DNA of 64,000 nt from NCBI GenBank assembly GCA_027487815.1, contig JAIYCW010000072.1:1-64000 (forward strand). The letters are read 5' to 3'. Positions 2,373-25,938 of the stretch are shown in pieces (position 1 is the stretch's first letter; each line of letters opens with the position of its first letter). The stretch comes from Burkholderiales bacterium (GTDB lineage: Bacteria; Pseudomonadota; Gammaproteobacteria; Burkholderiales; Burkholderiaceae_E). The notes below the pieces were generated by a model. That model saw only the letters and a program-made list of their open reading frames with translations. It had not been told where the DNA came from and searched no databases. The position numbers and the translations under genes were made by a program.

Positions 2373-2630
2373 TTAGGCGCGTGGCAGGCTCAGCAAGCCG
2401 CCGGCGTCTTTGATCATCGCTTTGATGGTGGCGCGGTCAGCGGTGCTCGCGACCGGCTTGTCATAAAGGCCACGCTCGTCAAAGCGAAACTCAAACGCGC
2501 TGGATGCGCTAATGGTTGGTGCGTCAGTTTGTGTGCCGTCAAATTGATAGAGCTCGCCTTGCGCGGCTTGAGCGGAAACTGCGCCAAGGGTGATGGTTGC
2601 GGCAATAAGGGCTTTGGTGAATGTGTTCAT
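2373..2630 (-). CDS. Small exported protein, repeated family, copy 1
   Basis: An 85-residue protein with a signal peptide ending AQA, leaving a mature peptide of about 62 residues that contains FDERGLYD and a C-terminal KAMIKDAGGLL helix. No known family is recognised. Two closely similar paralogues lie at 5157 and 25308 on the same strand; this is the most divergent of the three in the middle of the mature part. The start is set by a GGAG ribosome site 6-7 bases before ATG. The gene has its own terminator and an upstream leader of about 120 bp that is conserved between copies. It is divergent from the glycosyltransferase gene at 2821. Function unknown; it is presumably secreted to the periplasm. 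Confidence 0.75.
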   Translation of the reverse strand: MNTFTKALIAATITLGAVSAQAAQGELYQFDGTQTDAPTISASSAFEFRFDERGLYDKPVASTADRATIKAMIKDAGGLLSLPRA

Positions 2631-2775
2631 GGTTAACTCCAGTGCGATAAGTGATTAAAGGTTAGGGACTTCTTGCTTCAGCTCACGTTTCACTTCAGAG
2701 GTGTGTTGCGTGAGTCGATGGAGTGAATTCTGAAGGCCTCAGATCGCGCAGGCATCTCAGCAGGGCTCTGATGGG

Positions 2776-2814
2776 GATCAAGGAGATATCGAATAGGTCA
2801 CAAGTCGGTATGCT
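2776..2814 (+). promoter_or_regulatory. Direct-repeat operator GATCAA-N14-GGTCAC with downstream -10
   Basis: GATCAA begins at 2776 and GGTCAC at 2796, exactly 20 bp apart, followed 13 bp after the second box start by TATGCT (2809-2814). The same two boxes with the same 20-bp spacing occur at 5557, 19272 and 25708, and the TAxxCT element recurs at the same distance at 19305. No good -35 hexamer is present, which fits an activator-dependent promoter. From this -10 the transcript would start at or next to the ATG at 2821. Confidence 0.5.
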
Positions 2815-2820
2815 GCGAAG

Positions 2821-4092
2821 ATGCCTATTCGCTACTTCTTGATCACCGTTGGCAGCACGGGTGACATTCACCCCTTTATGTATCTCGCCAGGCAGCTCAT
2901 TGCGCAAGGGCGCGAGGTCACATTCATTTCGAATACTGTCCATCAAGTGCTGGTTGAAGGCGCAGGCCTGCGATTTATCGGGATGGGGAGTGAAGAGGAG
3001 TTTCAGCAATTGGTGGCCGACCCGGATATCTGGGATCCCCGAAAATGCTGCGCAATGATGTTTGCCAGCTATGGTCAACATATTGAGCAAATTCGCGCAG
3101 CGATTCGGCAAGCTCGGGGGTCGGATGCGGAGAGCAAGATAGGGGTGATCGCGCATGCGTTTGCTCTGCCTGCCGTAGCGTTGTCTCGCGCGGCCGGTGA
3201 GATCGATGCGATTGGAGCTGCCTATCTTGCGCCTTGCAGTGTTCGCTCGATTCATGATCCTTTGATGATTGGCCAGATTCCAGTGCCGCGCTGGGTGCCC
3301 TTGGGATGGCGGCGGGCCTTGTGGGGCTTTTTGGAGCGGGGCTGGATTGATCCGGTGCCGCTTGCGCATATCAATCGCGCGCGAAGTGACGCGGGATTGC
3401 CCCAAGCGCAATCATTTTTGGGTCACCTTGCACAAGTGCCCGACCTTTCACTTTTTCTGTTTCCCGCCTGGTTTGCCGCCCCAGTGCCCGACTGGCCGCA
3501 GCCCATGATGATGCTCGACTTCCCGCTTTTCGAAGCCCAATCCGAAGCCCCATTCGATGCAGAGCTGAGCCTTTTTTTGGAGGCTGGTGATAAGCCGATA
3601 GTGTTTACGCCGGGCACAGCGAATGTACATGCCGCGCGATTCTTTGCAGCGGCAGTTCAGGCCTGCGCGCGCTTGGGCAAGCGAGCGATATTATTAACCA
3701 AGGAGCGTGCGCAATGCCCGGCCGAGTTGCCCGCGTATGTGTTGTGGCAGCCCTATGTGCCGCTTGCGAGTCTATTGCCACGGGCAGCAGCGCTAGTGCA
3801 TCACGGCGGCATTGGCACCACCGCTGAGGCCTTGCGCGCGGGCATACCGCAAGTGATCACGCCCTTTGGTTGGGATCAGTTTGATAACGGCGCTCGGGTG
3901 CGATCGCTCGGAGTGGGCGAGGTGCGCAATTCGCGCATGCTGCGTGCAGGCGGGCTGGCTCGAAGCTTGAAGCGCCTCGTGGATTCGCCTGAGGTCAGCC
4001 AGCGATGCCGCGAAGTGTCTCAACATTTTCAGCGCGTGCAAGATTCATCGGCTTGGATCACGCAGATAGAGGCTCAGCTCGGGTTGAGTTGA
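2821..4092 (+). CDS. GT1-family glycosyltransferase (UDP-glucuronosyl/MGT-like)
   Basis: A 423-residue cytosolic enzyme of the GT-B fold, expected to move a sugar from a nucleotide-sugar donor to a lipid or small-molecule acceptor. The N-terminal domain opens with GSTGDIHPF, the glycine-rich acceptor-side loop of this family. The C-terminal donor site is clear: LVHHGGIGTTAEALRAGIPQ then PFGWDQFDN at about residues 325-360, matching the family's H-G-G and D-Q motifs. The start ATG at 2821 lies about 7 bp after a possible -10 box, so the message may be leaderless. Only the short divergent leader of the small exported gene precedes it. Donor and acceptor cannot be told from sequence. Confidence 0.85.
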   Translation: MPIRYFLITVGSTGDIHPFMYLARQLIAQGREVTFISNTVHQVLVEGAGLRFIGMGSEEEFQQLVADPDIWDPRKCCAMMFASYGQHIEQIRAAIRQARGSDAESKIGVIAHAFALPAVALSRAAGEIDAIGAAYLAPCSVRSIHDPLMIGQIPVPRWVPLGWRRALWGFLERGWIDPVPLAHINRARSDAGLPQAQSFLGHLAQVPDLSLFLFPAWFAAPVPDWPQPMMMLDFPLFEAQSEAPFDAELSLFLEAGDKPIVFTPGTANVHAARFFAAAVQACARLGKRAILLTKERAQCPAELPAYVLWQPYVPLASLLPRAAALVHHGGIGTTAEALRAGIPQVITPFGWDQFDNGARVRSLGVGEVRNSRMLRAGGLARSLKRLVDSPEVSQRCREVSQHFQRVQDSSAWITQIEAQLGLS

Positions 4093-5156: not shown

Positions 5157-5411
5157 TTAGGCGCGTGGAATGCTCAGCAAACCGCCGGCATCTTTGATCA
5201 TGGCTTTCACAGTAGCGCGGGTCACGGTGCTTGCCACAGGTGTGTCATACAGGCCGCGCTCGTCGAACTTGAAAGTCAGGTTCGGATTGCTTGCAGTGAT
5301 AGTCACTGCGGGGCCGTCATTGAATTGATACTGCTCGCCTTGAGCGGCTTGAGCTGAGACTGCGCCGAGGGTGATGGTTGCAGCGATAAGGGCTTTGCTA
5401 AATGTGTTCAT
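5157..5411 (-). CDS. Small exported protein, repeated family, copy 2
   Basis: An 84-residue paralogue of the proteins at 2373 and 25308. It has the same signal peptide (MNTFSKALIAATITLGAVSA) and C-terminal TRATVKAMIKDAGGLL segment, and differs from copy 3 by only a few residues. Upstream it shares about 370 bp with copy 3, ending at the core site that borders the HEPN-type gene. Downstream it has its own terminator. The role is unknown. The close similarity of copies 2 and 3, including non-coding parts, points to duplication of a whole unit of about 680 bp. Confidence 0.75.
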   Translation of the reverse strand: MNTFSKALIAATITLGAVSAQAAQGEQYQFNDGPAVTITASNPNLTFKFDERGLYDTPVASTVTRATVKAMIKDAGGLLSIPRA

Positions 5412-5785
5412 GATTGATTCCAGTGCGATAAATGATTAAGGATTAAGAACTACTTGCTTCAACTCACGTTTCACTTCAGAGGTGTCTTGCGTGAGTCGAT
5501 GGAGTGAATTCTGAAGGCCTTAAATCACTGGTGCGTCACGTTGGGGATCGAGTGGTGATCAAGAAGATCACGGTTTGATCACAGACTGGCTGGCACTGGC
5601 AGGTTTCTTGCTTTTCCCGTTGTTCAACGGGTTTATGCAAGCTCGTGACCAATATACTGGCTCGATATTGGATGAGCTATGCCAAATGGGAGATTGATTT
5701 GAAGGGAAAGTGTCGGCTAGAGTGTGGAGGAGTAGACCAGTTTATTGATCTTGAGCGCCCATAAACTTGGGCGCTGTGATTAAAC
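5412..5785. repeat. Conserved upstream region (copy 2) ending in attI-like core
   Basis: This stretch aligns along its length with 25563-25938. It includes the small-gene leader, the direct-repeat operator, an AGTTTATTGATC block and a perfect 7-bp hairpin (GCGCCCA 5755-5761 / TGGGCGC 5768-5774). Similarity stops abruptly just after the hairpin at ATTAAAC (5779-5785), which fits the integron core GTTRRRY except for the first base. The unrelated gene at 5829 follows. No other gene is seen here. I read it as a possible cassette landing site, but no integrase lies nearby, so this is inference. Confidence 0.5.
5555..5582 (+). promoter_or_regulatory. Direct-repeat operator, copy 2 (three GATCAM boxes)
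   Basis: GATCAA (5557), GATCAC (5566) and GATCAC (5577) lie in one orientation. The outer pair keeps the 20-bp spacing seen at 2776, 19272 and 25708. In addition GTGATC-AAGAA-GATCAC (5555-5571) is a perfect 6-bp inverted repeat. The -10-like element found in the 2776 and 19272 copies is not evident here. Confidence 0.45.
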
Positions 5786-18045: not shown

Positions 18046-18649
18046 GCCGCGCATCACGCCCGCAGCTTGTGCGGTAATACTTGTAGCGCAGGGGATTTTT
18101 CAAGTAGTAGTCCTGGTGGTAATCCTCTGCGGCATAAAAGGCTGGTGCAGGCTCCACTGGAGTGACGATTGGCTCTTTAAACGGCTTGGATTTCTCCAAC
18201 GCGGCTAATGAAGCGCGCGCAATCGAAAGCTGCTTGTCGTCATGCGCAAAGATCACGGTGCGATAGGGCGAGCCCGCGTCGCAGAACTGCCGATCCTTCA
18301 CTGTGGGGTCGATGGTGCGCCAATACTTCTCCACTAGTTGCGCATAGCTGACCTTGGCCGGATCAAACACAATCCGAACAACTTCGGTATGGCCGGTGGA
18401 CTTGGAAGACACCTGTTCATAAGTTGGGTTGGGCACCTTGCCGCCGCTGTATCCCGAGGTGGTGGAGATCACTCCGGGCACCTTATCGAAGTCAGCTTCA
18501 ACACACCAAAAGCAGCCACCACCAAACGTGGCCACTTCGGTTTTGGCACTAGCCGTGGTTTGGGCCTGAGCGGTGGGGGCCACTGGCAAGTACAGAGCAA
18601 TTGCAAGGCTCATCGCGGTAGCGAGGTTCATTCGGCGCAGCAGGTTCAT
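18017..18649 (-). CDS. msrA: Peptide-methionine (S)-S-oxide reductase, exported
   Basis: A 210-residue enzyme that reduces methionine-S-sulfoxide in proteins. The catalytic GGCFWCVE, the TGHTEVV segment and CDAGSPYRTVIF are all present, with a C-terminal cysteine (RTSCG) for recycling. I choose the ATG at 18649, which overlaps the msrB stop (ATGA), over the longer frame. The protein then begins with a hydrophobic signal sequence ending AQAQ, so it should act in the periplasm. It is transcribed with msrB upstream as an msrBA operon for repair of oxidised exported proteins. Confidence 0.92.
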   Translation of the reverse strand: MNLLRRMNLATAMSLAIALYLPVAPTAQAQTTASAKTEVATFGGGCFWCVEADFDKVPGVISTTSGYSGGKVPNPTYEQVSSKSTGHTEVVRIVFDPAKVSYAQLVEKYWRTIDPTVKDRQFCDAGSPYRTVIFAHDDKQLSIARASLAALEKSKPFKEPIVTPVEPAPAFYAAEDYHQDYYLKNPLRYKYYRTSCGRDARLKELWGEAR

Positions 18650-19161
18650 GCGGATTCCTTGAATCGAAGGGCGACGCCGTTGTTGCAATAGCGTTTGCCA
18701 GTGGGTTGTGGGCCATCGTTAAACATATGCCCGTGGTGCCCGCCGCAGCGAGCGCAGTGGTATTCGGTGCGGGGCAGGAAAAGTTTGTAGTCTGTTTTGA
18801 TGCCAAGCGCATCGGGCAGTGCCGAGAAGAAGCTTGGCCAGCCTGTGCCGCTGTCGTATTTCATCTCTGAGGTGAATAAGGGCAAGTCGCAACCCGCGCA
18901 ATGAAACACGCCCTTGCGCTTTTCTTTGTCCAGTGGGCTGGAGCCTGCCCGCTCGGTGCCTTCCTCACGCAGCACCCTAAATTGCTCGGAACTCAATCGC
19001 GCCTTCCATTGCGCATCGCTCAACACGACTTTGTCTGCACGAGTGGGTGTTGAAGCTGCCATCGCGGGCGCTGCGCCTGCGAACATTGAAGTAATCAGGC
19101 CGAGGCCGTATCGCCGGCGCGAAACCGAGGCGGGGCTGCTTTGGGCTATTTGTTGAGACAT
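18646..19161 (-). CDS. msrB: Peptide-methionine (R)-S-oxide reductase, exported
   Basis: A 171-residue enzyme reducing methionine-R-sulfoxide. Zinc ligands appear as CAGC and CARC, then GHMFNDGP and the catalytic RYCNNGVAL (usually RYCIN). The N-terminus has SRRRYGLGLI followed by an alanine-rich segment, a twin-arginine-like signal. Together with the signal on MsrA this indicates a periplasmic pair, comparable in role to secreted MsrAB fusions elsewhere. First gene of the msrBA operon. Confidence 0.92.
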   Translation of the reverse strand: MSQQIAQSSPASVSRRRYGLGLITSMFAGAAPAMAASTPTRADKVVLSDAQWKARLSSEQFRVLREEGTERAGSSPLDKEKRKGVFHCAGCDLPLFTSEMKYDSGTGWPSFFSALPDALGIKTDYKLFLPRTEYHCARCGGHHGHMFNDGPQPTGKRYCNNGVALRFKESA

Positions 19162-19271
19162 GGTTTTATGCTTGCCTGGGATGTTGGTTGGGTGGAGTCA
19201 GTTGCGTGACCTGACCTTGGCAATTCTCGCGGCCTTGGATATCCAAGGAATCACGCTTTGCCTCAGGCAGG

Positions 19272-19310
19272 GATCAAGATCATCACGGTTTGGTCACAGC
19301 GCAGGTAGAC
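19272..19310 (+). promoter_or_regulatory. Direct-repeat operator, copy 4, before GFA-family gene
   Basis: GATCAA (19272) and GGTCAC (19292) are 20 bp apart, with TAGACT (19305-19310) 13 bp beyond the start of the second box, as at 2776-2814. Here there is no small exported gene beside it, so the motif is not just part of that repeated unit. It lies between divergent msrB and the gene at 19359. Confidence 0.5.
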
Positions 19311-25307: not shown

Positions 25308-25562
25308 TTAGGCGCGTGGAATGCTCAGAAGACCGCCAGCGTCTTTGATCATCGCCTTCACAGTGGCACGAGTTACAGTGCTTGCCACAGGTGTGTCATA
25401 CAGGCCGCGTTCGTCGAACTTGAATGTGAGGTTTGGGTTGCTTGCGGTAATGGTCACCGAAGGGCCATCGTTGAACTGATATTGCTCGCCTTGAGCGGCT
25501 TGAGCAGAAACTGCGCCGAAGGTGATGGTTGCGGCGATAAGGGCTTTAGAAAATGTGTTCAT
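25308..25562 (-). CDS. Small exported protein, repeated family, copy 3
   Basis: An 84-residue paralogue, almost identical to copy 2 at 5157 (for example GPSVTITAS in place of GPAVTITAS), with the same signal peptide and C-terminus. Many differences between the two genes are silent third-position changes, which shows that the protein is under selection in both copies. It lies upstream of a second accessory locus, separated from the cargo gene by the shared 370-bp region. Function unknown. Confidence 0.75.
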   Translation of the reverse strand: MNTFSKALIAATITFGAVSAQAAQGEQYQFNDGPSVTITASNPNLTFKFDERGLYDTPVASTVTRATVKAMIKDAGGLLSIPRA

Positions 25563-25938
25563 GATTGATTCCAGTGCGATAAATGATTAAGGGTTAAGAA
25601 CTTCTTGCTTCAGCTCACGCTTCACTTCAGAGGTGTGTTGCGTGAGTCGATGGAATGAATTCTGAAGGCCTTAGATCGCAGGGGAGTCACAGCGGGGATC
25701 GAAGAGGGATCAAGGAGGTCTCGGTTTGGTCACAGAGCTGCTGGCTCTTACTGGTTTCTTGCTTTTCCGCCTTTTCAAAAAGTTTATACAAGCTTTTGAT
25801 GAATTTTTCGGATCGATCTTGGTTGAGCTATGCCAAATGGGGGATAGATTTACACGGTAAGTCGGCTAGAGTGCGGAGATGCAGACCAGTTTATTGATCA
25901 CAAGCGCCCATAAATTTGGGCACCATGTTTAGTTAGGC
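25563..25938. repeat. Conserved upstream region (copy 3) ending in GTTAGGC core
   Basis: Homologous to 5412-5785 throughout, including the leader, the direct-repeat operator and the hairpin GCGCCCA (25904-25910) / TGGGC (25917-25921). Similarity ends at GTTAGGC (25932-25938), a perfect integron core (GTTRRRY). To the right begins the unrelated cargo gene. This is the structure expected where a cassette has joined an attI-like site at the G/TT cut. No integrase gene is in the window. About 45 bp follow before the ATG at 25983. Confidence 0.55.
25708..25733 (+). promoter_or_regulatory. Direct-repeat operator, copy 3
   Basis: GATCAA (25708) and GGTCAC (25728) with the constant 20-bp spacing and the same CGGTTTGGTCACAG context as at 19286. 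No -10-like box is seen at the distance used at 2809 and 19305. Confidence 0.45.

Follow-up and report, generated by a model that had tools for sequence, protein, structure and literature searches.

What is the direct repeat that recurs with constant spacing in the intergenic DNA of this Burkholderiales genome? The window, by which we mean the whole analysed stretch of 64,000 nucleotides, contains GATCAA-N14-GRTCAC at 2776, 5557, 19272 and 25708, all on the plus strand and all intergenic, as the first-pass annotation had reported. Our scan of the window also gives an overlapping minus-strand match at 5555. These five matches compare with 0.02 expected, and none of 100 shuffled sequences contained five. 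Over the complete genome (3.70 Mb in 91 contigs) there are 11 exact matches, six on the forward strand and five on the reverse, and none to the reversed pattern. Nine of the 11, corresponding to eight sites, lie inside the arrays described below, while the other two (contigs C64 and C82) fall within open frames of 423 and 258 codons. A genome-wide scan was the check that the annotation had itself suggested, and its outcome supports the proposed regulatory role, with most matches in arrays and the array conserved in relatives across genera.

The repeat is part of a longer promoter array

When read on the minus strand, each of the four sites is a 75-bp promoter array of GTGAYC-type half-sites with variant boxes lying between them. 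The elements in the window are:

2727..2801, minus strand: promoter array before the exported gene 2373-2630; -10-like CAGAAT at 2732-2727
5508..5582, minus strand: promoter array before the exported gene 5157-5411; -10-like CAGAAT at 5513-5508
5582-5577, 5571-5566, 5539-5534 and 5528-5523, minus strand: half-sites of the 5508..5582 array at -69, -58, -26 and -15, respectively
5562-5557 and 5551-5546, minus strand: variant boxes of the 5508..5582 array
19223..19297, minus strand: promoter array before msrB 18646-19161; -10-like GAGAAT at 19228-19223
25659..25733, minus strand: promoter array before the exported gene 25308-25562; -10-like CAGAAT at 25664-25659

All nine copies of the exported-protein gene found in this genome and the region before msrB can be aligned over this block without a gap, and thus these ten arrays share one anchor. 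Half-sites (GNKAY) are located at -69, -58, -26 and -15 from CAGAAT in eight of the nine exported-gene copies, with only the match at -15 missing from the copy on contig C66. The msrB array has the same register, with GAGAAT as the hexamer. Boxes resembling TTGATC or TCGATC lie at -49 and -38, between the outer and inner half-sites; these middle boxes, at +20 and +31 in the arrays of this genome, depart from strict 11-bp steps. The msrB block is identical to the consensus of the nine copies at 64 of 104 positions, compared with a mean of about 26 (s.d. 4.5) for random window placements and 47 for the best place outside the arrays.

The pair noted in the first pass therefore corresponds to the boxes at -69 and -49, the first and third of a longer array. 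Its 20-bp spacing is real, but it is not a two-box unit, as a box at +11 and more boxes downstream had been overlooked. The plus-strand location is similarly correct for the four sites as a description and misleading as a direction: the arrays read on the minus strand, in the direction of the genes, and the four sites look uniform because all four target genes lie on that strand. A TAxxCT -10 element had been placed exactly 13 bp after the second box, at 2809 and 19305. The first is present, but the second is at 19306, so that the spacing is 13 in one case and 14 in the other and is not constant. TAxxCT occurs at +13 in just one of the ten arrays, and we have rejected it as the -10 element. 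At the first of these positions TATGCT (window 2809-2821) stops six bases short of the glycosyltransferase ATG at 2821, an arrangement that would allow a leaderless transcript. A strict sigma-70 scan of 2600-2900 found no promoter-like pair, and comparison of the window with Rfam gave nothing at the gathering score.

Genes behind the arrays

Three of the four window arrays precede copies of the nine-copy orphan exported-protein gene, and the fourth precedes msrB:

2373..2630, minus strand: orphan small exported-type protein of 85 aa; no Pfam family
5157..5411, minus strand: orphan small exported-type protein of 84 aa; sub-threshold Pfam matches only
18646..19161, minus strand: MsrB, peptide-methionine (R)-S-oxide reductase, 171 aa; Pfam SelR, and TIGR00357 above cut-off
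25308..25562, minus strand: orphan small exported-type protein of 84 aa

It had been noted earlier that one of the sites has no small exported gene beside it. This holds, but for 19272, upstream of msrB, and not for the fourth site at 25708. The assignments as exported rest on N-termini judged by eye; by the same inspection MsrB has what looks like a signal stretch at its N-terminus, of the twin-arginine type. The small proteins miss the cut-off for DUF4148 (Pfam PF13663), the best copy scanned from this genome scoring 16.6 against 27 bits. A search with their alignment found no relative in the genome contigs searched and none in 40 relatives; the family of 84-85 aa proteins was thus found in one of the 41 genomes searched, this one.

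In five of the nine copies (e.g. window 5157-5780 and 25308-25930) there is a duplicated unit bounded by the exported gene's stop codon at one end and by a GCGCCC...GGGCGC palindrome, some 360 bp before the ATG, at the other; the sequences flanking the unit are unlike. Two further copies are cut by contig ends (C72 and C79), and the copy beginning at window position 2630 and that on C57 are without the far upstream part.

Could the motif then be functionless sequence that has been carried along by recent gene duplication? Three of the four sites do precede paralogous copies whose upstream similarity covers a longer stretch. This explanation is contradicted by the in-register array found before msrB, before a sigma factor gene and before unrelated exported genes of other genera. 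Moreover, in the diverged copies at 2630 and on C57 the arrays retain 62-73% identity, compared with 23-35% further upstream. We regard it as extremely improbable.

The array lies between a response regulator gene and an ECF sigma gene

The sigma factor gene that carries the array is on contig C90, outside the window, and diverges from a response-regulator gene. The regulator has receiver (Response_reg) and winged-helix (Trans_reg_C) domains of the OmpR/PhoB family. It falls below the cut-offs of the equivalogs for WalR (YycF; NF040534, 227.4 vs 340 bits), PhoB (TIGR02154, 211.1 vs 296.2 bits) and CseB (NF041733, 207.4 vs 350 bits). In this genome it is followed by the reading frame of a putative histidine kinase; in the relative G054 the protein encoded in this place is a histidine kinase in which HAMP, HisKA and HATPase domains are recognized. 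The sigma factor reaches the cut-off for the ECF superfamily (TIGR02937, 84.1 vs 42.9 bits) and lies below that for TIGR02943 (140.7 vs 162.2 bits). Among the literature matches listed on such a regulator/sigma pair, no description of one was found.

With identity cuts placed at a gap in identity after both lists had been seen, the sigma factor and regulator occur in the identical set of 38 of the 74 genomes of the family, as divergent neighbors in 37 of them and on different contigs in G053. The sigma search had returned 41 rows in 40 genomes, from which three rows at 40-42% identity (G020, G009 and a second row in G007) were dropped. From the 50 rows in 40 genomes of the regulator search, 12 at 50-54% identity were dropped, removing G011 and G022.

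At 26 of the 30 sigma loci examined, this genome included, a -10-like hexamer comes after a pair of half-sites, and the spacing is 48 bp in every case; it was left free from 31 to 79, so this value was not forced. When the sigma/regulator promoters of 28 other genomes were aligned, half-sites were present at -48, -37, -26 and -15 in all 28; these promoters had been picked for the 48-bp spacing and the first two half-sites, but G..A at -26 and -15 was not selected on. The sigma promoter on C90 is longer: its six half-sites succeed one another every 11 bp exactly between -70 and -15, counted from a hexamer that, like that of the C44 array below, was picked by eye. A TGA-N8-TGA direct repeat is contained in the array of the window gene starting at 5411 and in most of the sigma promoters, and is degenerate in others. 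In genus g15 the array in the gap is directed at the regulator gene in G014 and G064 (L229 and L234), either in place of the sigma gene or in addition to it, and G014 and G065 have matches in both directions at this gap.

Since most of the sigma loci examined have the array ahead of the sigma gene, the conserved block might be a promoter that the ECF sigma factor recognizes, in an autoregulated sigma regulon, the repeats being secondary or binding something else; ECF sigma regulons do often contain their own sigma gene. We consider this unlikely. ECF promoters are not known to consist of four to six direct repeats in phase across 50-70 bp, the arrays of G014 and G064 point toward the regulator, and the -10-like element retains A and T at housekeeping positions 2 and 6.

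The preferred reading is that the sites are operators of the OmpR/PhoB-family regulator encoded on C90, which would activate a regulon for envelope or oxidative stress, with its own locus among the targets. Judged from sequence, we hold this to be very likely. Both here and in the relatives, a single two-component regulator probably governs the sigma factor as well as a set of small exported proteins and a repair enzyme that is likewise exported. The suggestion made in the first pass of a regulator site for a small regulon is thus well supported, since the distance between the array and a -10-like element is constant, the genes that follow are unrelated to one another, and the array is conserved across genera, whereas the unit, the plus-strand direction and the TAxxCT -10 proposed with it have not survived.

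Arrays in related genomes

Three models were used to search for arrays: R1, made from the ten sites of this genome; R2, from 11 sites; and R3, from the 28 sigma promoters, without this genome. Matches to R1 in relatives are weak. Two precede small exported proteins of other sequence (G004, E 0.004; G089, E 0.017). Only L038 and L039 were retained from the weak matches, the nine others outside this genome showing no such gene at a glance. One of the exported proteins of the relatives has homologues in 11 of the 74 family genomes, and six of the 15 upstream regions of exported homologues that we inspected (L115, L116, L121, L122, L123 and L125) are without an array. The first box lies at a distance of 69 from the -10-like hexamer in the sites of this genome and of 70 in L038, L110, L111, L113, L119 and L131; its distance to the ATG, unlike this, varies from 130 to 171. 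Other genomes contain 61 msrB loci; R1 was run on 31 of these and gave no array match, and therefore the array before msrB is not general.

The box pattern has 33 matches in the 74 family genomes, 25 of them outside this genome, compared with two for the reversed pattern. Six of the 21 outside matches inspected lie before small exported proteins. Of the other 15, 13 are located in open frames of more than 120 codons; several of the six before small exported proteins are so located too, and thus the remaining matches are not proven to be chance.

R2 at E ≤ 0.05 has matches in 36 of the 74 genomes and 12 of the 16 genera. We inspected 29 of these. Twenty precede short exported-type frames (one, L190, runs into the contig end), and L193, before a start codon cut by the contig end, makes a 21st exported-type case. 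Four precede the ECF sigma gene (C90 of this genome, G012, G051 and G054), three have a terminator-like hairpin and no reading frame, and one is unrelated. A match before an aldo/keto reductase gene (L174, G069) looks like chance. When the R2 rows were compared by coordinates, 12 of 59 lay in the sigma/regulator gap, and one was the model site G004:C271.

R3 ranked 5563-5583 (minus strand) first in the window, with E 0.01; the other three window sites ranked 5th, 8th and 20th among 35, and their E of 0.9 to 6 is within noise. Its best matches in this genome are the sigma promoter on C90 (1e-4) and the array on C44 (2e-4), and its best in three genomes without the regulator have E of 0.11 (G001), 0.47 (G016) and 0.07 (G003).

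These searches bear on whether the arrays might be operators of another OmpR-family regulator, and not of the neighbor of the sigma gene. G004 has strong arrays (E 2e-15, 5e-11 and 2e-8) with no neighbor regulator, and neither regulator nor sigma factor was found in it at the thresholds used (its assembly, 95% complete, consists of 380 contigs). There are also the further regulators at 50-54% identity in several genomes. Against this, the array lies in the regulator's own intergenic region at 28 of 30 sigma loci and, as a weaker match, in G065. Matches at E ≤ 1e-3 outside the model genomes also track the presence of the regulator, occurring in 10 of 32 genomes with it and 1 of 35 without (p 0.002), a count in which G054 enters by its sigma promoter and G019 was left out as its site nearly repeats a model row. 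A different regulator seems to us quite improbable.

Candidate small RNAs

The array on C44 (L036:1500-1665, contig C44 from 25952) has half-sites at -69, -58, -47, -26 and -15 from TAAGAT. Behind it there is no notable reading frame, and instead we find an 85-nt stretch that folds (z -6.6) into three hairpins, of which the last is terminator-like, and that includes the unpaired sequence CCUCCUCU. This stretch is a candidate for a regulated small RNA. In genus g15 similar sRNA-like stretches come after arrays at L168:1427-1502 (G068), L191:1364-1450 (G064) and L175:1577-1665 (G066); these have a CU-rich loop and a terminator-like hairpin, and the C44 stretch is not clearly homologous to them. 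L168 matches Rfam RF02278 below the gathering score. This and the matches at sRNA-like loci to sbrA, AgrB and other Rfam families are all sub-threshold, and we do not read them as membership.

A model for regulation from the array

In the regulation that we propose, the C90 regulator would bind tandem GTGATC-type half-sites in 11-bp steps, held in a fixed helical register with the -10 element. In place of a -35 box there would be the half-sites at -26 and -15, and those further upstream (-69 and -58 in the targets of this genome, -48 and -37 in the sigma promoters of relatives) would add further dimers. The regulator would most likely activate transcription by the housekeeping RNA polymerase. 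We propose that it acts on the sigma/regulator locus, on the gene of the exported MsrB and on those of the nine small exported proteins, and probably also on the C44 small RNA. The sequences show the arrays with their register and conservation, the genes that follow them and the divergent arrangement of regulator and sigma genes. We infer the binding of the regulator, activation over repression, the -10 element and start site, the export of the proteins and the signal.

A wider possibility, which we put forward tentatively, is that it is the promoter array and not the protein that is conserved in the family. One two-component regulator with a divergent ECF sigma partner may use the same helically phased arrays to serve an undescribed envelope-stress network of small, lineage-specific exported proteins that are replaced and multiplied together with their promoter, along with exported MsrB and small RNAs.

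The analysis yields a candidate regulator, an operator rule and a target set for orphan exported proteins that could not be placed by protein comparison alone. It also provides a promoter grammar, with half-sites 15 + 11n bp upstream of the -10 element, that can be scanned for elsewhere. If the model is true, this is also a case in which a two-component system uses a single type of site to govern effector genes as well as the gene of an ECF sigma factor.

Comparison with known systems

Aspects of this arrangement recall several described systems. In Streptomyces coelicolor the CseBC two-component system controls transcription of the ECF sigma gene sigE, which is in one operon with cseABC and is seemingly the sole target of CseB (PMC6767563, PMC8999054). 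A two-component system and an ECF sigma gene are thus common to both, but here the genes are divergent and effector genes share the sites. AgrR of Cupriavidus metallidurans is an OmpR-family regulator that activates the gene of a small periplasmic protein, PrsQ (PMC7380067), and so shares with the present system the family of the regulator and a small-protein target. Its box, ATKACA-N4-TGTMAT, differs in being an inverted repeat, and it has no matches in the window with up to one mismatch allowed (0.29 expected by chance).

At the level of the site there are parallels with direct-repeat regulators. CenR of the CenKR system of Rhodobacter sphaeroides is of the OmpR family and uses TGA-N8-TGA half-sites, reported as pairs; its direct targets include secreted proteins, msrA, rpoH1 and its own gene (PMC9275681). 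TGA-N8-TGA is the 11-bp step of GTGATC-N5-GTGATC, and targets of the secreted-protein, Msr, sigma and self classes are found in both. There are four to six half-sites here compared with pairs there, and rpoH1 is not an ECF factor. WalR/VicR binds hexamer direct repeats with a 5-bp spacer (PMC4168254), the same geometry; in that case there are two repeats with a consensus near TGTWAT, and the regulator described here lies below the YycF cut-off. ArcA, like the present regulator a member of the OmpR/PhoB family, binds direct repeats 11 bp apart, and more than half of its sites have three to five repeats (PMC3798270). Their number and spacing are variable, whereas here the register to the -10 element is strict within each promoter class. 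Since 11-bp direct repeats are shared by ArcA, VicR/WalR and CenR, the repeats that we observe fit a regulator of the OmpR family.
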